Part shown: piece by piece, positions 12,887-46,141 of the stretch | How the letters are laid out: each line of letters opens with the position of its first letter | Position numbering within the stretch: position 1 is the first letter of the stretch | Origin: Campylobacteraceae bacterium | GTDB taxonomy: Bacteria > Campylobacterota > Campylobacteria > Campylobacterales > Sulfurovaceae | NCBI GenBank assembly: GCA_027068975.1 | Contig: JALXFN010000056.1 | Coordinates: forward strand, 1 to 46,985 | DNA: 46,985 nucleotides | Direction of reading: 5' to 3' | Notes under the pieces: model-generated | The model's input: the letters and a program-made list of their open reading frames with translations, nothing else | What the model was told of the DNA's origin: nothing | Databases searched by the model: none | Translations under genes and position numbers: made by a program

Positions 12887-14034
12887 ATTTCTGAACCCAC
12901 TAAAATTTTTCTCATTTTTTCATAATGAATCTTCCACTGAAATCGTTTGTTATATAAATCAACAGATACCAAGGAAGCTTTTTTTAATTTTTCCTTATCA
13001 TTTAGCAACTCTTCTATTTTAGATGCTAGAGATAAAGGATTACCATATTCTGTATAAAATCCATTTTCATTCTCTACAATAATATCAGGGATAGAACGAT
13101 ATTTAGTAGATATAATAGCACATCCATATGCCATAGCTTCAATAATAGATACAGGTTGCCCCTCCACATGGTAGGATGTTGGCAAGATAAAAATATCGGA
13201 CTCCTTTAGAAGTGATTCTTTTTCTTCTCCTATAACAACCCCTCGATAAGTGATATACTCTTTTAATTTATCTGACTTTATCTTTTTTAAAAACTCTTCT
13301 TCAAAGACCGTGATGTCACTTCCTAAAGGGTCATCAGGACTAGCTATAAAAGAACCTGCAAATGTTAAGTGAAAATTAAATATTTCTTTATCAATTAAAA
13401 TCTCTACCGCTTTCAGCAAATCCATATAACCTTTTGTATAAATTAAATTAGACAAAAAAAGTAATTCAATCTTCTTTTTAGATAGATCAAAATAAACGCC
13501 TTGATTCTTTTCAATAGATGAGGTCAATGCATTTTCAACAACAATAATTTTATTTTTTAGCTTTGGACAAAAATCATACATTTTTACCAATGAATCACCA
13601 AGAGCAATAATTGTATCACTTTTATTTAGAAAAAAACGTATTAAAAGTTGCAAAAAACTATTTTGGCTCTCATAAAAAGTGTCATAATTACCACCTTTTA
13701 AATGAATTACAAATTTTGATTGAGGACTTAATAGCTTACTTATAGAGAGTGTTAAAAAGTCCCTAATAAAGCCTACAGTTGTTGAGCCTTTTGTAACATA
13801 TATTGTATTAGGTTTACTCTTTCTTAAAGAAGTCCATAGCTGTTTTAGAACAGAAAGATTTTCTTTAATCCTACTCCATGTTGCTTTACCTGTAATATGT
13901 TTATTTTTAGGAGCTGTATTTATATAAGAAACCTCTTGAATATCTTCCAAAAGTGCTTCATATAGTTTTAGAAAAGAGATTGAGTGCCCTGTATAAGGGG
14001 GAGGAACAGCCCCTATCATTACTATTTTATTCAT
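12883..14034 (-). CDS. Glycosyltransferase family 4
   Basis: A GT-B fold transferase with about 383 residues. The N-terminal glycine-rich segment is GAVPPPYTGHSISFL, and the donor-binding C-terminal half carries the E-x7-E motif in EGQPVSIIEAMAYG. I take the ATG at 14034, which overlaps the end of the polymerase gene by 8 bases, as is usual in this cluster. A GTG five codons upstream (14049) would add only MIKNR and has AAAGG directly before it, so the start is uncertain by five residues. It overlaps the GT2 downstream through an ATGA junction. Donor sugar is unknown. Confidence 0.86.
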   Translation of the reverse strand: MNKIVMIGAVPPPYTGHSISFLKLYEALLEDIQEVSYINTAPKNKHITGKATWSRIKENLSVLKQLWTSLRKSKPNTIYVTKGSTTVGFIRDFLTLSISKLLSPQSKFVIHLKGGNYDTFYESQNSFLQLLIRFFLNKSDTIIALGDSLVKMYDFCPKLKNKIIVVENALTSSIEKNQGVYFDLSKKKIELLFLSNLIYTKGYMDLLKAVEILIDKEIFNFHLTFAGSFIASPDDPLGSDITVFEEEFLKKIKSDKLKEYITYRGVVIGEEKESLLKESDIFILPTSYHVEGQPVSIIEAMAYGCAIISTKYRSIPDIIVENENGFYTEYGNPLSLASKIEELLNDKEKLKKASLVSVDLYNKRFQWKIHYEKMRKILVGSEI

Positions 14035-15370
14035 TCTGTTTTTTATCACCTTTTTGTGTATTTAACATTAAAAAATATACTCCTAATAATAAATATATAA
14101 TTATCATTGATAGTAATACGGAAAATAAAAAGGATACTGCCAATCCTGGATCATTTATTGTCGTACACATAGTATTATATAAAATATTATAATAGATAAA
14201 TCCTAAAATATTAGATTGAAAAATCATTGTTGACTTTTGTAAATATCCAATAAAAAAAGAAAGGGTAATAAAAATAACTGTCGTAAAAAAAAATCCAAAG
14301 TAGACAATTGAAAAAAAGTATAAGCGTATATTTGGTCCACCAACTTGATCACCAGAAAGAGAATAATAATAGTTATGTAACTGATCAGAGATAGAAATAG
14401 GCAAAGAGTCTCTGGGTATAACCCTAAGCGTTGCTAAAGGGTCTCCAAAAAGAGTTGCCCATAAAGGTGTTTGACTCAATTTATCTACTAAGACATCCAT
14501 ATTTGGGAAAAAAAGAACTTCCGTATCTCCTCTAAATAAAACAGCAACCATTGCTTTTATAGAACCTAACATTGCATCATTAAAGTTAAACATCAATATT
14601 AACAAAAATAGAATAACAGCTATAAAAAATATTTTATACTGTAAACGATATAAACTTTCAGGTAAATTTATAAGGTTTTTAAACCAATACACAGAAACCC
14701 CAAATGTTAAAATAATAGGCAAAATAGCACTTTTCGTCCCAGATAAAATAAAGGTAACTAAGAGAAAAAACATCATTAACCATGGAGCAATATACTCTCT
14801 CTTTCTCAATTTATTAATATAAATAATCATTAAGTTATAAACCAATAACAAAGAGAGAAGAAACTGAAGTCCAGGCAACAAACGATTGATAAATCCTAAA
14901 TCTCTAAAAAATTGATGATGAGGTAGAGCATTTTCAGTTAAAAGAGGTATTCCTATTTTATAATAAGCATACAGGGTAAAAAACATATAGATAAAAAAAA
15001 TACTATAAAGAAGAAATCTCATAACTTGAGAAGATTCAACTACTAATATTTTAAATTCTTGAAGTTGAGTTAAACTATATGCACCATCTAGTGATGAACC
15101 TATACGATAAAAAATCACAGATAATAAAAGAAAATAAAGTGGATAGTAGTAGTGAATATCAAAACTATTTTGATAAAAACTTGCATAAACTAAGTTTGTT
15201 GAACCTACTATCATTAAAAAAAGCATTAATGAAAAAGGTTCAAATAAAACTTTACCTTTTCCAAATTTTCCTGAAATTTTAAAAGTTAGAAAAGATATTA
15301 TTAATAAAAGAACAATATATCCCAAAGGGTTTAAAAGCACCATTGGAATAAAATCATAGTGAAAATGCAT
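14027..15370 (-). CDS. O-antigen/exopolysaccharide polymerase (Wzy-like)
   Basis: A multi-spanning membrane protein of 447 residues with about eleven hydrophobic segments and a large central loop at about 285-350, the layout typical of Wzy polymerases that join lipid-linked repeat units in the periplasm. Sequence conservation in this family is poor, so the call rests on topology and context: it sits among glycosyltransferases in the same operon as a Wzx flippase, opposite an OPX/PCP pair. A short loop near the C-terminus contains the motif NTMCTTINDPG. Start ATG at 15370 follows the previous stop by 9 bases. Confidence 0.8.
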   Translation of the reverse strand: MHFHYDFIPMVLLNPLGYIVLLLIISFLTFKISGKFGKGKVLFEPFSLMLFLMIVGSTNLVYASFYQNSFDIHYYYPLYFLLLSVIFYRIGSSLDGAYSLTQLQEFKILVVESSQVMRFLLYSIFFIYMFFTLYAYYKIGIPLLTENALPHHQFFRDLGFINRLLPGLQFLLSLLLVYNLMIIYINKLRKREYIAPWLMMFFLLVTFILSGTKSAILPIILTFGVSVYWFKNLINLPESLYRLQYKIFFIAVILFLLILMFNFNDAMLGSIKAMVAVLFRGDTEVLFFPNMDVLVDKLSQTPLWATLFGDPLATLRVIPRDSLPISISDQLHNYYYSLSGDQVGGPNIRLYFFSIVYFGFFFTTVIFITLSFFIGYLQKSTMIFQSNILGFIYYNILYNTMCTTINDPGLAVSFLFSVLLSMIIIYLLLGVYFLMLNTQKGDKKQNE

Positions 15371-20824: not shown

Positions 20825-22510
20825 TTACAGCTCCAAAAACTCCACCCCATCTTTAGAGCCAATCAAAAGAAAGCTTCTAAGCTTAGGAATGCTTTTAACT
20901 TTGTCAAGTTGTTGATAGCCCTCAACTTGTTTCATTCCCTCTTTTTTTATAGTCTCATAATTATCTTTCTCTTTTTTCCATTTTAATTCAAACAGATAAT
21001 TATTTGGAACTTTATCATCTCTTCCTATGAGTAAAATATCAGGATATTTATTGTCAAGTTCAGGTTGTGAGTCTATAAAGTAAAAATCTGCAAAACTCAA
21101 AAGTGCCAAAGTAATGACATGAAAATGCTTCTCTGTAAATCCATAGTGGTCACGGTTAGAGAGGGTTTTTATGGCTATATCAAGCTGTCTCTTAAAGGAT
21201 TCAATATCTCCTAAAAGAAGCTTAATAGGCAGTTGTGAAAATGAGTCCTCTTGTTTAAAGTTATTGCGTCATTGTAGCTCAACAGCAAAGTAGTTAAAGT
21301 AGAGAATCTTTATGACATAGTTAGGTATCTCAAAAATATTTAACTCGCCTGTTATCTGCTCTTTTATGGTAATAAAACCCATTGAGTAGATAAGGGTAAT
21401 AAAGTCATCTTGTGTAAAATCTTGGTTTAGGTCATATCTGTCTTTTATAATTCCTGTCACAGTTCCATTTTCTATGAGCTTTTCTAAAATTTTATAGTTT
21501 CTGTCACTGTCACCTATGTTAAAAAGTTTCATAATGGCTTTGTAGTCAGAAGCTACATTACTGTCTAACATTTTAATAGGCATTTGACATCGTACTTCAT
21601 CATATTTGGAGATAAAGTAGTTTACTAGTGTTGCACTATAGACTCGCTCTGTAGCTTTTATATTAAATAGATAACCGTTATACCATGTTTTTAACTTCTC
21701 TTGTAGTGCCTCTTTATCTATATTTTTACACTGTTTAAAGATATATTGCTCTAGTGAGTAGTTAACCTCTTTTTGGCTAAACCCTGCCATTAGGTTAAAC
21801 TCTTCTTTATTGGAAATATTGGAGACAATGTTAAACCCAGAACTTAAACTATCGAGTGTTATAGGCGTTACTCCTGTAATGAACATCTTTTGCACTACCC
21901 CACTTTGAGTTGCACCCTTTAGCACTTCATAAAAGCTTCGTACAAATCCCCCTTTGCCAACTATTTGTAAAAAGTCTTGCATACTATGGGCGAGTATGGC
22001 ATTGGCAAATTGGTCATACTCATCTATAAGCACATAGACTTTGTCATTTTCTATAACATCAAAAAAGTATTTTATAAGTCCTGTTGGTGTTGGTATGTTA
22101 TTTAGGCTCTCTCTTGTAATATCATAACCATACTCTCTAAAGTATCTATAAATAGCCGATTTAATATTATCTTTAAAGCCTTCATAGATTATTTCTACTC
22201 CACCATCGGTATTAATACCAGAAAACTCAAAAAATAGAATACGAAAGCTATTTTTTAGAGGAGTAGGATTTTTTCCAATATAGGTGTCATTAAACATAGC
22301 ATCAAACTCATCAGCTGTATTTTCATCATAATAGTACTGCAAAGTAGAGAGAAAAAGAGACTTTCCAAAGCGTCTTGGGCGTAAAAAGATTAAAAAGCTC
22401 TCATTGGTCTTTTCTAATTTTTCTATATAGTTTGTTTTATCAATATATAAGTAGTCATTGTTTATCTTTACTTTTTTAAAGTTACTTTCACCATAGATTA
22501 TCTTTTTCAT
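20825..22510 (-). pseudogene. AAA-ATPase/PD-(D/E)XK nuclease gene broken by one in-frame TGA
   Basis: Belongs to the family combining an AAA-ATPase-like domain (PF09820) with a C-terminal PD-(D/E)XK nuclease-like domain (PF08011). The first 413 codons (22510 down to 21272) include a Walker A-like loop in RPRRFGKSL and Walker B in VLIDEYD. A TGA at 21269-21271 then interrupts the frame. Reading resumes in the same frame (RNNFKQEDSFSQLPIKLLLG), runs through ALLSFADF and the nuclease motif PDILL...FELKWKK, and stops at 20825. No frameshift is needed: one base change, for example CGA to TGA, explains it. A truncated ATPase-only protein may still be made. The cellular role of the family is unknown. 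It separates wzx from rfbB and has its own promoter. Confidence 0.85.
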
Positions 22511-35916: not shown

Positions 35917-38076
35917 CTATTTTACTTTATAAATTTTACTGTATGGTGATGAGACTACTAACTCAAATAAATTCTTATCATACTTTCCAAGCATAAACAT
36001 CTGAACATAGGCAGAGTTGTATGTTTGTCTATCCATTACAACCATAACACCATAACTTTGTAAAAAGACCACACAAAACTCACCATCCATATGCATCAAT
36101 TGTGACTTAACTTTTGGCATACCATTGGCTCCTAAAGTAGCTACATCAAAACGTTGTACTTTTTTCGTTTTTCCTCCAAGCTCTATCTCTCCCTTTGCAG
36201 AATCGAAAACAATACCATTTTGAAGTAATAACTTAGCTCCACTTTGTTGTGCTATAGCAGAAGGATAAAAATGAATCTGACGTTCAGGCTTACCTGTTTT
36301 TAGGTTAATATTGCCAAACACACCAACAGTTGGGAAAATACGCATCATTCTAAATGGAAAATATAGATAAACATCTCTTGTTTTTTCTGGAAGTTTATAG
36401 TTTTCACTTTTCAAATCTTCCATAAACTGTTTTGGACTCTTTTTACTATCTTTAAAAAGTCTATCCGAAACAATTGAGTAATTAGAGTCAACATAAGTTT
36501 CAACAGCCAAACGACTTAAATTTGCTACTTGTTGAGGTGAATCTGAAAACATAAGTTTAGAGATAATATAGTTATCATGCGTATGCTTACCACCATCTAT
36601 AAGAGTATTGGTATCAGAGTAGTACCAAATAGGGTAACCATAATCCCACCAAGTTAAAGTATAGTCTTTATTTGAAGCTATATCATCAAGTTTGTCTAAA
36701 TCTGCTACTTCTGTTTTATTTAAAACTGTAGGAACCAAATAACCTTGAATATGTTTAATGTTTGGGTAAATCATGGCAACTGTAGCTAAAATAACAAATG
36801 TATATTTAGCTATATTTTGTTGCTTTTTATCTGCTACATTCTCTTTTAGCCTATCCCCTAAAAAGAAAAAGAGATAAACAGCAGAAAGAGCAGCCACAGG
36901 TACAGCATAAACAGTAAAACGCAACCCACCAACCATAGAAAATACACCCACACCTATTAATGGTAAGGCAATTAAAAATGCTTTATGTCGCATAACTAAA
37001 AGAACATAACCTATAAGACTTACTATCACACCAACCTCTGAACCAGAAATTCTATTTGCCATAGTAGCAAAAGGAATAGCCCCTGCCTCACGAACGGTTT
37101 GTACTACCTCATAAAATTTCAAAGACCCCTCTGCTACACCACGGTCAGCATAAGTAACAACATGAGACCAGATAACAGCAAAAACATTTCCAAAAAATAG
37201 AAAAGCTACAAAAGAGGCAACTGCCAAATATAATAACTGTTTCTCTTCTAATTTTTTAGCCAATATCACAGACACAAAAATGATAAAAAGTAAAATTCTA
37301 GTCTCTATAGGTAAGGTAATCATTAAAGGTATACTTAGCAGAGTAATACTACCATAAAGAGAGATAGCTCCATCTTTATAAGGAGCTGTCTCCTCATTAC
37401 TAATAACGCCTTTGTACTCTAAAACCATGTATAAAATCAACAAAATATACATAGCATAAACAAGTGTCATTCCTTGAGGATAAAAGTAAGGATAGATAAA
37501 TACAAGAAATGAAGCAAAAATTATACTCACAAAATTCTTTTTATAGACCACCGACAAAAAAGAGTAAAAAATCATAAATTGCAAAAAGACAGAAAACATA
37601 TCAGAGTCATAGTATCCAACCATAGTACGGTTATAGTAACTCCAAGCAATAGACCCCAAGAGTGCTGCTAAAAATCCTAACAATGTATTTCCAAGTAAAC
37701 GCCCTGTAAGAACAATAGGTATAACAATTAAAGAAGAAATGATTGCTGGTAAATATAGGGAAACTGTATCAAGAGAAAAAGAGGTAAACTTAGTAGCATA
37801 AGCAGTCAAGAGTACCAAACCAGGACTAGCATCTATAGCACTTGCTCTCTGCTTATCTTCTGCTATAACACCATCAATAATATCTTTAGCATTGGTTGAG
37901 AAGAAATACCCATCATTGGTATTTATCATCAACTCCCCAGCATAATGCATACTTTGTACATCTGCAAAATGTAAAGGCCAATACATTCTAACACCCATAC
38001 TAAACATGTATGCCAAAACAATAAAAAGTACTATTGCCAATATATTTTTTTCTATAAAATCTTCTATTTTTATCAC
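35917..38076 (-). CDS. pglB: Oligosaccharyltransferase PglB (STT3 family)
   Basis: The N-glycosylation enzyme that transfers a lipid-linked glycan to Asn of periplasmic proteins. The protein has 719 residues and aligns with C. jejuni PglB (713). About 13 transmembrane helices fill the first 440 residues. Catalytic acidic residues are Asp55 (NTNDGYFF), Asp157 and Asp159 (YYDSD), and Glu330 (TVRE). The acceptor-binding WWDYG is at 476-480. Arg342 (NRISGS) aligns by eye with the Arg that reads the acidic -2 residue of bacterial sequons. The start is GTG, sharing its G with the pglA stop, with AGGG upstream. All active-site positions I can place are intact. Confidence 0.96.
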   Translation of the reverse strand: MIKIEDFIEKNILAIVLFIVLAYMFSMGVRMYWPLHFADVQSMHYAGELMINTNDGYFFSTNAKDIIDGVIAEDKQRASAIDASPGLVLLTAYATKFTSFSLDTVSLYLPAIISSLIVIPIVLTGRLLGNTLLGFLAALLGSIAWSYYNRTMVGYYDSDMFSVFLQFMIFYSFLSVVYKKNFVSIIFASFLVFIYPYFYPQGMTLVYAMYILLILYMVLEYKGVISNEETAPYKDGAISLYGSITLLSIPLMITLPIETRILLFIIFVSVILAKKLEEKQLLYLAVASFVAFLFFGNVFAVIWSHVVTYADRGVAEGSLKFYEVVQTVREAGAIPFATMANRISGSEVGVIVSLIGYVLLVMRHKAFLIALPLIGVGVFSMVGGLRFTVYAVPVAALSAVYLFFFLGDRLKENVADKKQQNIAKYTFVILATVAMIYPNIKHIQGYLVPTVLNKTEVADLDKLDDIASNKDYTLTWWDYGYPIWYYSDTNTLIDGGKHTHDNYIISKLMFSDSPQQVANLSRLAVETYVDSNYSIVSDRLFKDSKKSPKQFMEDLKSENYKLPEKTRDVYLYFPFRMMRIFPTVGVFGNINLKTGKPERQIHFYPSAIAQQSGAKLLLQNGIVFDSAKGEIELGGKTKKVQRFDVATLGANGMPKVKSQLMHMDGEFCVVFLQSYGVMVVMDRQTYNSAYVQMFMLGKYDKNLFELVVSSPYSKIYKVK

Positions 38077-39224: not shown

Positions 39225-40144
39225 CTCAACCTCCTTCGTATTTTTTTAATAAACTCTAAAAGTCCTACTGGAACCAAATAGGCAGGATAAAGTAAAATAT
39301 AGAACAAATCTCTGTTTTTCTTCATGAGCTGTATAACAGCATCGATAGAGACATAGTTCTTACTCAAAGAAAAACCTCCATAGACAATAATAAAAATATT
39401 AGTGTAGATAAACTTTTTTAGACTTTTGTACTGTTTATGTTCTTTTAATTCTTGTTGGTTTTCATAAAACCATTTAATGGGGCAAGGTAAAATAGCTTCT
39501 TTATGCACAGTTGCACTTCTATTTGAAGCATTAAGACGATAGATAGACAAAGGTTTAGCAGAAAAAGCCAAACTTCCTTTTAGTCCTAGTCTTAGCCAGA
39601 CACAAATATCTTCTCCCTTTTTTTCATTTTTAGGAAACAACACTCCTGATGACTTCTTAACACAAACACTTGAAGAGTTTACCAAGGCATAATTGTTAGA
39701 AAATGTCTCTATAAAGTTTTCAATAAGACCCGTATACTCTCTTGAAAATGAAACTTTACCTTTGACTACATTACCTTTTTCATCTATGTATTTATGTGCT
39801 GTTGAGTAAAAAAGAGCATCAGGGTAATTTGTAATTAACCTTTGGATTTCTTCTAAAAAATTTTCTTCCCATAAGTCATCTCCATCAAGCAGACAAATAT
39901 ACTCATTTTTTGCCTTATCCATTCCTCTGTTTCTAGCCATAGAAACGCCTAAGTTTTTTTGTGAAACAACTTTTACTTTATCTTCAAATATCTTTTGAAC
40001 AACTTTAACTCCATTATCGGTTGAGCCATCATCCACGACAATAATCTCATCTGCTTTGTAGTTTTGATTTAGCACTGATTTTATAGTCTGTGCTATATCT
40101 TTTTCTTTGTTGTATAGGGGGATTACTACGGAGAATTTTATCAT
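39221..40144 (-). CDS. Glycosyltransferase family 2
   Basis: A GT-A fold transferase of 307 residues. FSVVIPLYNKEKDIAQTI is the N-terminal signature, and the DXD motif is DGDD in LLDGDDLW. The C-terminus is hydrophobic then basic (IKKIRRRLR), suggesting membrane attachment. The start is taken at the ATG (40144) that overlaps the preceding stop as ATGA. A TTG six codons upstream is less likely. It occupies a place where C. jejuni has other pgl transferases (PglJ, PglH, PglI), and may be a PglI-like branching enzyme, but this cannot be confirmed. Confidence 0.85.
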   Translation of the reverse strand: MIKFSVVIPLYNKEKDIAQTIKSVLNQNYKADEIIVVDDGSTDNGVKVVQKIFEDKVKVVSQKNLGVSMARNRGMDKAKNEYICLLDGDDLWEENFLEEIQRLITNYPDALFYSTAHKYIDEKGNVVKGKVSFSREYTGLIENFIETFSNNYALVNSSSVCVKKSSGVLFPKNEKKGEDICVWLRLGLKGSLAFSAKPLSIYRLNASNRSATVHKEAILPCPIKWFYENQQELKEHKQYKSLKKFIYTNIFIIVYGGFSLSKNYVSIDAVIQLMKKNRDLFYILLYPAYLVPVGLLEFIKKIRRRLR

Positions 40145-41112
40145 TTTGATAATACACTCCAAACTCCATAGAAAAAATATTTAGAGAAGATGGCTTTTAT
40201 ACTTTTTTTATAGTAAACATTCCAAAACCATTTTTTACCTAAAACTTTTTTTAGTTCTAAGTTATCAAATATTTTTTCTCTATTATTGGCTTCAATAATT
40301 TTAGAAAAATAGCTTTCTAAGCTAGAAAACTCTAGCTTATTGTCTCTTATTCTTATGTTTTCACTCAAATTAAAATGAAGTCTATTCTCCTCTTCACTGT
40401 TTTGAATATTTAACCTCTTTAAATAAAATTTAAAAATAGACTTAATCACTCTATATCTATTCTCTTCATCTATATTGGCTTCTCTTGTAATAGAATTTTG
40501 AACAATTCTATACTTCAATAATGGCATTTTTAAATTAGCAAACTTGGTATACTTTGCCATACGCGTCCAAAGTTCAAAATCTTCAGCATGTAAAAATTTT
40601 TCATCATAAAATAGCTCATTTTTTATCATAAGTTCTCTTCTTATCATAACCGTAGGGTGTGCAAAACATGACGAAAATAGAAGCTCTGTTTTAATAGTTT
40701 TATCAGTCTCAGAAAGCAACCAAGGTGTCTCTTTAATTTCTTCTCCAAAACCAATAACTCCAGTACCACAAATACCAACATCTGAATTTCTTTCCATAAA
40801 TATGACTTGCTCTTCAATCCTAGTAGCTAAAGATATATCATCAGCATCCATTCTAGCAATATACCTTCCTTTTGCTATTTCTATACCCTCATTTAAACTT
40901 GATACTAATCCTCTGTTTTCTCTACTGATAACAACGATTCTCTTGTCATCATAACTACGTATAATTTCTAAACTTTTATCGCTTGAGCCATCATCTATAA
41001 TAATAAACTCAAAGTTTTCATAACTCTGATTTAATATACTTTCAATGGCTTCATCTAAATATTTTTCTCCGTTATAGACAGAGAGTACTACCGAGACTAA
41101 GGGATTACTCAT
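40141..41112 (-). CDS. Glycosyltransferase family 2
   Basis: A GT-A fold transferase of 323 residues. VSVVLSVYNGEKYLDEAIES opens the protein, IDDGSSDKSL follows, and the DXD motif is DADD in ARMDADDIS. CFAHPTVMIRRELM and HAEDFELW are typical of the subgroup that includes many capsule and O-antigen enzymes. It is distinct from the neighbouring GT2 in sequence and C-terminal length. It overlaps the unknown 491-residue gene by 8 bases. AAGGG precedes its ATG. The added sugar is unknown. Confidence 0.87.
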   Translation of the reverse strand: MSNPLVSVVLSVYNGEKYLDEAIESILNQSYENFEFIIIDDGSSDKSLEIIRSYDDKRIVVISRENRGLVSSLNEGIEIAKGRYIARMDADDISLATRIEEQVIFMERNSDVGICGTGVIGFGEEIKETPWLLSETDKTIKTELLFSSCFAHPTVMIRRELMIKNELFYDEKFLHAEDFELWTRMAKYTKFANLKMPLLKYRIVQNSITREANIDEENRYRVIKSIFKFYLKRLNIQNSEEENRLHFNLSENIRIRDNKLEFSSLESYFSKIIEANNREKIFDNLELKKVLGKKWFWNVYYKKSIKAIFSKYFFYGVWSVLSK

Positions 41113-42580
41113 GATTACCCTTTACTTTTCTATATATCGTTCTTGCGACATCAAATAGACCCAGTTTTTGTAATGCTAAAAGTGCGTACTGACGGGTCTT
41201 AATCTGTTTATAGTAGATATTTTGTCGAAGTTGGCTAAGTACTATTTTTAATCTATCCTCTTCAATCAATGCTTCCATCATTTTACAATCATTTCTATCT
41301 TTTACTTCATCTCTTTTGGTTTTCATCTTATAGAGTTGAGAAAAAGAGATAAACTTTAAACCATTAAAATAAAAGTAAAACTTTTGATTATAAATCATCT
41401 CATTTTTTTGCTTATCATAATACTCTAAAACCTCATCATGCATATTTATCTCATCAAAATCAAACTTAACTGCACTGTTGTCACTACACAGATAGTCTGT
41501 ATCACTCGCCTCTCTTAACCCATAAGCAGAAAGAACAATGCTTGAATCTAAAAGAACATCATTACTCTTTAAACCATTTTTTTCTATAAAAAGTTTAAAA
41601 TTATCTATCTTTATATGGGTTGATACATATTTATTCGGCTTTGCATGGTTAAGAAAATGTAGTGAATTATCATTAAAAACCAATCTGGCTGATTCAATTG
41701 CTTCTTCTTTTGTATCGGTTATATGTACAGCATGTTTTCCTACTTTAAAAACATCTCGAATACGCTCTTTTATCTCTAAAACCTCATCTAAATTAGCTGC
41801 TTGAAAAGCTATAACTCTCACAGGGTCAAAGGTTTTAAAACACTCTACTAGTTTTCCTTTTGTTCCTTTAAAGTCATCTTCAATACTTCCTATCCACTCT
41901 TCGCCAGAGTACAAGCCAGAGAGTAAATTATGTGCCCCATTAACATTTAACTTTATCTCTTTCTTGTAGACAACATTAGGAACTATGGCTTCTATTTCAC
42001 TCTCCTTACCTACAGCTGTTGGCCAAATAAAAGCAATGTAAACATTTGAAGCATATTCTACAAATTTTGTAACTACAGTATCTAACATCGTTGTAGAGAG
42101 TGCTCTTTTATAGAAAAAATTATAATCATACAGATGGTCATAACTATTTAAAGCAACACATGCTACCTCTTTTTCTAAAAATATCGCAGAAGCTACCCTG
42201 TGTGCTCCATTTGCTATGGCACCATTTTGTGAAAGAGGGACTAAACTTTTAGATGAATCAAAGCCTTCGCTCTGAATCTCTTCAAACGTATCGTTAAATG
42301 CATCTATAAACTTATCTATACTACTTTTTTCATCATTACCTGGTTCTCTAAATGCTCCTAATGTCAAAGCTTTTATATGCTCTTTGTAGTACTCTTTAGC
42401 AAAGGTTACATTTTTCTCTTTCATCTCCAAATACAAAAGTTTAAATGCCAAATCCAATCTAAATGAAGTGAGTAAATTAACAGCTTTTATACTCTCAACC
42501 CTATACTCTTCAGATGTTAAATCACTGTAAAAATGTTCATCTATGAGTTTAGTTAGTTCAACCTTTGAGATTTTTTTCAC
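41105..42580 (-). CDS. Unrecognised 491-residue protein with ParB-like and nucleotidyltransferase-like segments
   Basis: I do not recognise this family. The N-terminal 100 residues look helical. Residues of about 110-145 read VPLSQNGAIANGAHRVASAI, resembling the ParB/Srx-type nucleotide-binding motif (NG.I.NGAHR). The middle has WPTAVGKESEIEAI and a segment HAVHITDTKEEAI. Near residue 345 DVLLDSSIVLSAYGLREASD is followed by TDYL and later MKTKRDEVKDRNDCKMMEAL, reminiscent of a nucleotidyltransferase fold. No signal peptide or TM helix was seen, so it should be cytoplasmic. The start is GTG with AAGG upstream. It sits mid-operon between a CgeB-like GT and a GT2, suggesting a role in glycan donor activation or modification, which is inference only. 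Confidence 0.8.
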   Translation of the reverse strand: MKKISKVELTKLIDEHFYSDLTSEEYRVESIKAVNLLTSFRLDLAFKLLYLEMKEKNVTFAKEYYKEHIKALTLGAFREPGNDEKSSIDKFIDAFNDTFEEIQSEGFDSSKSLVPLSQNGAIANGAHRVASAIFLEKEVACVALNSYDHLYDYNFFYKRALSTTMLDTVVTKFVEYASNVYIAFIWPTAVGKESEIEAIVPNVVYKKEIKLNVNGAHNLLSGLYSGEEWIGSIEDDFKGTKGKLVECFKTFDPVRVIAFQAANLDEVLEIKERIRDVFKVGKHAVHITDTKEEAIESARLVFNDNSLHFLNHAKPNKYVSTHIKIDNFKLFIEKNGLKSNDVLLDSSIVLSAYGLREASDTDYLCSDNSAVKFDFDEINMHDEVLEYYDKQKNEMIYNQKFYFYFNGLKFISFSQLYKMKTKRDEVKDRNDCKMMEALIEEDRLKIVLSQLRQNIYYKQIKTRQYALLALQKLGLFDVARTIYRKVKGNHE

Positions 42581-42584
42581 ACGA

Positions 42585-43577
42585 TTAACCTTTAATCTTT
42601 TCTACTTCTAACATAAAATCAACAATTCGATTTTTAAAAGTATGCTCTAACCTAGCTCTCTTGACTCCAGCTAACTTAATGGCTTCTCGTTCATCATCAT
42701 GTGCTAAATAATACTTGATTAAAAGTTCTGCTTCATCTATGTCTCTATAGCATGAAATCTCTTCCCCTATATTAAAGTAGTCCTCTAAACTGGGCACATA
42801 CTCTGTTAGCTCAAAACCACCTTGAACAGGTATTTCAAATATTCTAGCTTTTGTTTGACTCTTATTTTTTGCAGCCCGTAGGGTATTAATAATATTTCGT
42901 GGGTTAGCAAGTAAGTAACGTATATCGTACTGTGTACTGTTAGAGATATTTAAATTTATTTTTGAGGTTAGAAATATCTCTTCCATCTCTTCATAACTTA
43001 CGCGTCCATTATCCCAGTTAAATCCAAAACAGTGTACTTTTATGCCTCTTTTTTCTAACTCTTTAACAAACCATTGACGAAACCTACTAGCCCCTCCAAT
43101 AAACGTTACATCATATTTGTATTCTACTTTTTCATAATCAACAGTCGAAGGTAATGATGCCCATTGGCTTCGTATAATATTCTCTTGCCCTATCTCTTTA
43201 TATTTATCAACACTAAATTTATCGGTAGTAATGCATGCATCAAAATAGTTTGCATATTTAGAGCTAAAGTTGTCAAAACGCCACTGGTCATCACCAAACC
43301 AATTGACTGTAAAAAAATTCTCTTTTAAACTTTTTAAAGTCTCTATCTCTATTTGATTCTCTTGTAAAATACAAAAAACAATGTCAGGCTTTATATTTTT
43401 AGCTTGTGTAAGTATCTCTTTTTGTAAATCGGTAGAGTCATTGTCATACCATACAGGTATAACATCGTACCCCAACGCTACAAAGCTGTTATAAAAAGCC
43501 TTTTTGTTAAGGGCTTCTCCATTCTCTTTTTTTGAGTACTCATATTGCGAACCAATATACAATATTTTTTTAATCAT
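42585..43577 (-). CDS. CgeB-like glycosyltransferase
   Basis: A GT-B fold protein of 330 residues of the CgeB/DUF3880 type. ILYIGSQYEYS is the N-terminal strand, VNWFGDDQWRFD and VTFIGGASRFRQWF belong to the central region, and the C-terminal donor half has ARIFEIPVQGGFELTEY and NIGEEISCYRD followed by YYLAHDDEREAI. This last block is the clearest family mark. It overlaps the DUF268 gene by 8 bases. In other bacteria such proteins occur in spore-coat, flagellar and surface glycan loci. Donor and acceptor are unknown. Confidence 0.84.
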   Translation of the reverse strand: MIKKILYIGSQYEYSKKENGEALNKKAFYNSFVALGYDVIPVWYDNDSTDLQKEILTQAKNIKPDIVFCILQENQIEIETLKSLKENFFTVNWFGDDQWRFDNFSSKYANYFDACITTDKFSVDKYKEIGQENIIRSQWASLPSTVDYEKVEYKYDVTFIGGASRFRQWFVKELEKRGIKVHCFGFNWDNGRVSYEEMEEIFLTSKINLNISNSTQYDIRYLLANPRNIINTLRAAKNKSQTKARIFEIPVQGGFELTEYVPSLEDYFNIGEEISCYRDIDEAELLIKYYLAHDDEREAIKLAGVKRARLEHTFKNRIVDFMLEVEKIKG

Positions 43578-45112: not shown

Positions 45113-46141
45113 TTAATTCCCCCTCTTTTTTTTAATATTATCTACAACTATTTGAGCATTGTACTTTACGCAAAACTTATGCCCTTTTTCACTATTTAAA
45201 AATTTTTCTATATTAGTTAAATAGTTCCAGTAAATCTCATCACTCATATTTTTCATATACTTATACAACTCACTGTTTGAAGAAAAATCTCGTCTATCTA
45301 TAAAACACGCTTTGGGTATATAGTCCGAAACATTATTTGCTCCTAAGTAGACAGGAACACAACCTGCAAAGAGTGGGTCAAATATCTTTTCTGTAACATA
45401 ACCTGCTGTACCTTTAATATTTTCATAGGCAATAGCAAACTTATAATCTTGCATGGTTTCAAATTTATTAGCAATTTTACCTCTGTAAGAGGGATACTCT
45501 TCTCCAAAAAACTTAAACATAAGGCGTTTGGCTAAAGGTATACGGTTAAACGCTCTTATAAAAATGGAACCTTTAAAAAAGTACTCATTCCAGCCTACAC
45601 CATACAGAGAAAAATCATCAGGGTAATTCGTTTCAAACCAGCGTATTATACTTTTTCGTTCACTATAGAGTTCATTTGGATGGATCGATGTTTTATTGCC
45701 AACAATTAAACAGCAAAGTTTCTTCTTATCTATATTTTTAGGTATGCTCGTAGGTAAAGTAAAAGAGTAGTTAATTTTTATATACTTTTCATTATCCACA
45801 AAATCATCATGCCAAGTAAATACTTTATTAAAATAATCATGATTAGACTTATCATAATTATCAGGTTTAAACAGAGGACTTTCTATTAAAATAATATATG
45901 ATTTATATATATGTTCGGCTAATGGCATAGTCTTTGGCATATCCATATAAAGAATCACGTCTGACTCTTCTATACTGTTAATATCATTCGTAGCAATGTC
46001 ATATCCATGTTCTTTAAACGCATCATAGATGGCATAGTATTTATCTAAAGCATTATCTCTAATGGGTATTTTTGTTTGATACCTATCAAAAATAAGATTA
46101 TTCTGCCAATGTTTATCTACTACGAACGAGACTTTTTTCAA
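45113..46141 (-). CDS. GT10 fucosyltransferase-like glycosyltransferase
   Basis: A 342-residue protein of family GT10, the alpha-1,3/1,4-fucosyltransferases also found in Helicobacter. The family-defining C-terminal motif is FAIAYENI...GYVTEKIFDPLFAGCVPVYLG (residues about 230-272), followed by YIPKACFIDRRDF. The N-terminal acceptor half is variable as expected. It has no TM anchor. The heptad repeats seen at the C-terminus of some Helicobacter enzymes are absent. GDP-fucose synthesis is only half covered in this window (GMD-like gene but no Fcl). It overlaps the FkbM gene by 4 bases. Confidence 0.88.
   Translation of the reverse strand: MKKVSFVVDKHWQNNLIFDRYQTKIPIRDNALDKYYAIYDAFKEHGYDIATNDINSIEESDVILYMDMPKTMPLAEHIYKSYIILIESPLFKPDNYDKSNHDYFNKVFTWHDDFVDNEKYIKINYSFTLPTSIPKNIDKKKLCCLIVGNKTSIHPNELYSERKSIIRWFETNYPDDFSLYGVGWNEYFFKGSIFIRAFNRIPLAKRLMFKFFGEEYPSYRGKIANKFETMQDYKFAIAYENIKGTAGYVTEKIFDPLFAGCVPVYLGANNVSDYIPKACFIDRRDFSSNSELYKYMKNMSDEIYWNYLTNIEKFLNSEKGHKFCVKYNAQIVVDNIKKKRGN

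Follow-up and report, generated by a model that had tools for sequence, protein, structure and literature searches.

Sugar-1-phosphate nucleotidylyltransferases have a Rossmann-like fold, unlike the minimal, AbiE-type and ANT-type nucleotidyltransferases (NTases). The ParB/Srx fold includes known NTP binders and small-molecule kinases, and a 2025 survey of the ParB-CTPase fold gives the Arg of the GxxR motif as required for NTP binding (PMC12704722). In the NDP-kinase (NDPK), a His carries the phosphate, with Tyr, Arg and Asp residues near it (PMC11431768). For glycan assembly, the synthesis of MeOPN in C. jejuni from glutamine, ATP and CTP involves a kinase and a nucleotidyltransferase, which make an activated glycan substituent (PMC11800397). 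Here, a 491-aa protein encoded in a stretch of Campylobacteraceae DNA of 46,985 nucleotides (the window) was analyzed. That it joins three folds which handle nucleotides (ParB/Srx-like, NDP-kinase-like and nucleotidyltransferase-like) is well supported by structure models and comparisons, the fold evidence being strong for NDPK and NTase and moderate for ParB. The protein is probably a new enzyme that builds or decorates sugar chains, since marine viruses have these three domains together as well, beside sugar transferases or in a fusion with them. Each of the folds is known by itself, but not the combination or its proposed glycan role.

The gene occupies 41105..42580 of the minus strand as 491 uninterrupted codons with a GTG start, and it was delineated from the ORF, the AF2 model and the full-length relatives; the peptides QNGAIANGAHRVASA and DVLLDSSIVLSAYGLREASDTDYL both lie within its translation. 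One copy is present in its own 2.78-Mb genome. Single-sequence and profile searches of the protein against Pfam, NCBIfam, PHROGs and PDB sequences returned chance-level matches only, and the maximum 19-residue Kyte-Doolittle mean of 1.15 predicts a soluble protein. The AF2 model, which was built on a 31-sequence alignment, has a mean pLDDT of 93.3 and a pTM of 0.89. Foldseek detected no match of the whole model in the PDB at E ≤ 0.001; the NDPK domain was picked out by VIA-align of the whole model and the NTase domain by a separate model of its own. Conservation was scored over 36 full-length sequences with identities down to about 29%, and the catalytic-type residues of all three domains are invariant in 36/36 of them.

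Residues ~36–176 (42053..42475, minus strand) may, with moderate confidence, be assigned as the ParB/Srx-like domain from a weak profile match and from Foldseek BFVD names. The hhalign comparison with ParB_N gave P = 0.0064, placing NGAHR over AGERR, while mismatched pairs gave 0.09–0.56. Several BFVD matches of the whole model are named ParB/Sulfiredoxin with high probability, and the PDB structure match lists for the whole model were taken up by the NDPK domain. Two motifs stand out, both on the minus strand: R41-x-D43-x3-K47 (42440..42460), which is invariant even in stand-alone ParB-like relatives, and N124-G-A-H127-R128 (42197..42211), which corresponds to the GxxR (P motif) of the ParB fold. 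The residues R41, D43, K47, Y65, K85, G125, H127 and R128 of this part are invariant in 36/36 sequences. A canonical ParB partition protein of the ParABS type was rejected, since NDPK- and NTase-like domains make up the remainder and the neighbors are glycosyltransferase genes, with no parA among them.

VIA-align placed residues 178–306 (41663..42049, minus strand) on the C. jejuni NDK structure 3pj9 with a Z of 11.8, an rmsd of 2.7 and 22% identity over 115 residues, and all 50 of the matches listed were NDPK-fold chains or axonemal chains and assemblies. The ends of the structural alignment (178 to 1, 306 to 135) agree with a register that puts P187 over the Pro of NDK and H286 over its catalytic His. 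In the hhalign comparison of this region with a narrow NDK set, which is weak alone (P 0.018, probability 2.6%) and serves the residue register only, KVGKHAVHITDTKEEA lies over SIEANAVHGSDSLENA, which puts H286-x-x-D289 (41714..41725, minus strand; invariant in 36/36) on the catalytic HGSD, and Y224, R275, H286 and D289 on the NDPK Tyr, Arg, His and Asp that contact nucleotide phosphates or metal. Invariant in 36/36 sequences are K271, R275, H286, D289 and N303. Within the N-x-x-H-G-S-D signature, the His and Asp are kept in all 36, but the Asn and the Gly (Ile here) are not, and the active-site Lys of the NDK strand IIKPD, which assists in orienting the phosphate during transfer, is likewise replaced, by W186 in the window and by W, F or H in relatives. 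These replacements of the Lys by Trp or Phe and of the HGSD Gly by Ile suggest that ordinary NTP-to-NDP transfer may have been lost. Neither the 491-aa protein nor its relatives gave an NDK sequence match above the family cut-off, and an ordinary NDK gene is present elsewhere in the same genome. An ordinary NDK was set aside as an identity for the protein.

The nucleotidyltransferase-fold domain covers residues ~313–445 (41246..41644, minus strand), and its separate AF2 model has a pLDDT of 94.7. The VIA-align Z values were 9.6 for TM1012, 8.3 for MenT1, 7.0 for ANT(2'') and 6.9 for JHP933; ranks 1–15 of its structure matches (Z 9.6 to 3.4) are all nucleotidyltransferase-fold or AbiE-system chains, and the toxins MenT1, MenT4 and TglT are among the closest folds. 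The active-site motif S347...GLRx3D360xD362 (41495..41542, minus strand) conforms to hG[GS]-x9-13-DxD: residue 347 is Ser or Gly, and D360 and D362 are kept, in 36/36 sequences; G354, R356 and K420 are also invariant in 36/36. In the AF2 model and the 36 sequences, no clear acidic residue takes the place of the third NTase acid, and a near-invariant H381 follows the next strand. A sugar-1-phosphate nucleotidylyltransferase was set aside for this domain, as the matches are of the minimal, AbiE and ANT types instead.

The sequence-only reading of this gene had called the protein unrecognised, which the searches of Pfam, NCBIfam, PHROGs and PDB sequences bear out. It had described two nucleotide-linked segments: a ParB/Srx-like NGAIANGAHR segment, whose GxHR proved invariant in 36/36 sequences with weaker structural support than the NTase, and a C-terminal nucleotidyltransferase-like block, for which the invariant G354, R356, D360 and D362 and the fold comparison agree. 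Both segments thus stood, although the count did not, as the third fold (NDP-kinase, residues 178–306) had been missed. The claim of one soluble protein inside a glycan operon is likewise consistent with the hydropathy and with the glycosyltransferase neighbors.

The gene is placed between two glycosyltransferase genes, a CgeB-like/GT1-type gene upstream (42585..43577; PF13524, E 1.2e-26) and an adjacent GT2 gene (40141..41112; PF00535, E 4e-35), whose first 8 bases overlap the end of the 491-aa gene. Downstream in the operon lies a PglB/STT3-like oligosaccharyltransferase gene (35917..38076; PF21436, E 9.5e-43), the product of which matches NF050801 at E 1.3e-139, under the model's own cut-off. 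It is adjoined by genes of the bacillosamine type, for a PglC-like glycosylphosphotransferase, a LegC/PseC-like aminotransferase and a PseB-like dehydratase, and these neighbors are the ones expected of a pgl-type N-glycosylation locus. Farther along the locus are GT4, FkbM and other methyltransferase genes and a GT10-like gene (45113..46141; PF00852), relatives of which were also detected beside phage and other bacterial family members in the neighbor survey. All four genes with coordinates given here are on the minus strand. In addition, the glycan region of the window contains a gene of 447 aa at 14027–15370 with no Pfam match at E ≤ 1e-3, and a predicted AAA-ATPase gene (PF09820) lies inside the glycan gene run at 21269–22510.

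Full-length relatives were found in Sulfurovum (63% identity), other Campylobacterota (about 57%), a flavobacterium (45%), Ilyobacter polytropus (44%) and Jannaschia (29%), and the bacterial ones are located in glycan-type clusters. The protein family is rare, occurring in 2/175 genomes of the taxonomic family, in 5/397 genomes of the phylum with a deep profile and in 1/395 genomes of the flavobacterial class; one further match, in genome G258 (E 2e-4), was rejected as an ABC transporter with a chance match of 81 residues. A scan of IMG/VR viral sequences with the full-length bacterial alignment gave no match, and an alignment of the N-terminal domain then brought out a phage branch. With the N-terminal-domain alignment, a mixed alignment and a phage member as queries, 40 plus 14 IMG/VR loci were obtained, some contigs being repeated, and several contigs carry T4-like genes for a clamp loader, a translation repressor, PhoH and baseplate proteins. 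None of six family members used as queries found a match in cultured phages. Long runs of glycosyltransferase-like genes (GT25 and unnamed), together with methyltransferase and sugar-epimerase genes, surround the relative in uncultivated marine phage contigs such as L021, L042 and L064.

The gene context was surveyed in 36 non-redundant loci carrying relatives, as raw counts taken without a random-contig background. NAD-sugar epimerase/dehydratase relatives occur in 22/36 loci, a GT10-like gene related to that of the window in 11/36 and GT4 genes in 10/36, while no single conserved downstream transferase across the family loci points to the product. A link to glycans is drawn from the PglB-bearing locus with its bacillosamine-type genes, from the NAD-sugar enzymes in 22/36 loci and from the GT2 fusions: five surveyed phage members have an N-terminal GT2 domain (PF00535, E 1e-14 to 3e-22). 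These do not form one clade, and the fusion label requires four changes on the tree, which implies repeated gain or loss of the fusion.

Other natural variants show how the protein is divided. In the Paracoccus protein (L007), the ParB-like part and the tail are kept, while His286 and the NTase are both lost, and a further relative (L018) consists of the ParB-like part alone, the motifs of which are preserved. A 700-aa phage protein (L024:5001-7100, with L025) carries a second NDPK+NTase unit without ParB, and the NTase of its first unit lacks the KDxxD end, as if the second unit had taken over; a search for free-standing copies of this second unit gave nothing beyond that gene itself and a fragment of 20 residues. 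These variants thus divide the protein into two separable units, the ParB-like part and NDPK+NTase. The Campylobacterota genome G860 encodes an 849-aa relative with a C-terminal radical-SAM fusion (PF04055; L082:7775-10324), whose NDPK-like motif IHSSDS is nearer the classical HGSDS, along with a second copy of ordinary length (L083:7462-8844). Most bacterial members, and Paracoccus, end in a basic helical tail (41108..41245, minus strand, in the window) with a net charge of +7 to +14, which is retained even in the shortened Paracoccus protein (L007:12775-12900) and could contact a membrane or a partner.

Literature searches for the combination of ParB, NDPK and NTase found no description of it, and the main text of the 2025 ParB-CTPase-fold survey (PMC12704722) does not mention it; as far as the literature was searched, no characterized enzyme has this layout, as the sequence-only reading had supposed. 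That reading had also proposed an activating or sensing enzyme of glycan assembly. The genomic context fits this proposal, with glycosyltransferase and epimerase neighbors in bacteria and phages alike and GT2 fusions in phages, and searches for a known family that matches the full length but has an unrelated function found none. The conservation of catalytic-type residues in all three domains favors an enzyme, so the pure sensor appears the weaker half of that proposal.

We suggest, at a probability of roughly 0.38, a cytoplasmic glycan-assembly enzyme that would phosphorylate and then nucleotidylate a small acceptor (an alcohol, amino acid or sugar), yielding an activated donor that contains phosphate. 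Nucleotide binding and the kinase or acceptor site would fall to the ParB/Srx-like domain, as in SerK/SbnI of the same fold, the NDPK-like domain would shift the phosphate via His286, and the NTase domain would put a nucleotidyl group on the phosphorylated product, with D360 and D362 holding the metal. The NDP-activated group would then be used by a GT2-type transferase, neighboring here and fused in phages, so that a lipid-linked N-glycan is built or capped. This donor synthesis is supported by the folds, the invariant residues, the joint loss of His286 and the NTase in Paracoccus, the second unit of L024 and the link to glycans, and MeOPN synthesis in C. jejuni offers a precedent. Only tentatively can the protein be seen as representing a new class of enzymes, with a nucleotide relay that a single polypeptide would run (ParB-fold kinase, NDPK-like phospho-His transfer, NTase) to make a glycan block or cap, spread in bacteria, marine T4-like phages and giant viruses and sometimes fused to the glycosyltransferase that uses its product.

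Direct action on a glycan or lipid-linked glycan, in which the NTase would move a nucleotidyl or phosphoryl group to a sugar hydroxyl and the other two domains would hold the acceptor or provide the nucleotide, is rather unlikely. The structure matches include ANT(2'')-Ia (Z 7.0), a nucleotidyltransferase that acts on tobramycin, an aminoglycoside containing sugar, and the phage GT2 fusion and the bacterial basic tail would fit a membrane-bound sugar acceptor; that tail, however, is missing from the phage members, and the motifs are fully conserved in ParB-like copies that stand alone, which suggests that this domain has its own chemistry. Less probable again is a nucleotide-sensing regulator or scaffold of a glycosylation complex, with the ParB and NDPK folds binding ligands without catalysis. 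Many proteins with the ParB fold act as NTP-dependent switches and have diverse partner domains, according to the survey (PMC12704722), and a GT2 fusion would permit control in cis, but His286/D289 and D360/D362 are invariant in phage and bacterial members alike, which exceeds what ligand binding requires.

The recycling of sugar nucleotides, whereby the NDPK-like domain would remake NTP from the NDP released by the neighboring glycosyltransferases and the NTase would rebuild the NDP-sugar, would draw on the NDPK fold with its catalytic His and on the GT2 fusion. It is nevertheless improbable given the ordinary NDK elsewhere in the genome, the replaced NDPK Lys and the minimal/AbiE/ANT-type NTase matches in place of the Rossmann-like fold. 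A host-takeover or defense-type NTase, resembling AbiEii or MenT toxins, acting on RNA or protein and lying in glycan islands by chance, is very improbable: MenT1, MenT4 and TglT are among the closest folds and many members are phage-borne, yet no antitoxin-like partner was noticed, and glycosyltransferase and sugar-epimerase neighbors recur in four bacterial phyla and phages, along with the GT2 fusions. As a toxin-antitoxin pair of the AbiEii/MenT kind, the gene was set aside because no antitoxin gene adjoins it: its neighbors in the window encode glycosyltransferases, and those of the relatives are sugar genes.

The analysis maps the domains, and names catalytic residues that can be tested, in a family without a name in Pfam, NCBIfam or PHROGs, which recurs in the glycan clusters of four bacterial phyla and of uncultivated marine phages, and it extends the 2025 ParB-CTPase-fold survey by one fusion absent from its main text. 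If the proposed donor synthesis holds, a step would be explained in N-glycan assembly by bacteria and in the glycan synthesis that phages encode, and an unexpected use would be added for the NDP-kinase fold.

Among known systems, the MeOPN genes Cj1415–Cj1418 of C. jejuni follow the same logic, a small molecule being phosphorylated and then nucleotidylated for glycan transfer, although the MeOPN kinase and cytidylyltransferase are separate proteins and the likeness is one of analogy only, without a claim of homology. The giant-virus proteins A0A481Z0W0, A0A5K0UAL1 and A0A1V0SAX2 (LCMiAC01, Yasminevirus and Catovirus) resemble most of the model length, BFVD giant-virus matches covering 335–490 alignment columns with E down to 5.9e-15, but they are longer and only 13–21% identical, and those of Yasminevirus and Catovirus are named 'glycosyltransferase'. 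With NDK/NME (PF00334), the protein shares the fold, His286/D289 on the HGSD His and Asp, and Y224/R275 on the conserved Tyr and Arg, while it differs in having HI[TN]D for HGSD, a shorter loop before the His and a multidomain setting, and it falls under Pfam detection. The minimal nucleotidyltransferases (TM1012, MenT1, ANT(2''), AbiEii type and JHP933) share the fold (Z 6.9–9.6), a Ser-containing loop followed by DxD and a K/R-rich KDxxD helix, but identity to them is 7–13%, the NTase here is C-terminal to an NDPK-like domain and its third acid is not evident. The ParB/Srx fold, including the SerK/SbnI serine kinases, is approached through the profile match, the GxxR in register and the invariant GxHR; the HTH and dimerization domain of the ParABS ParB are both lacking in the 491-aa protein, and its family is set apart by the conserved R-x-D-x3-K element and by the fusion to NDPK and NTase domains.
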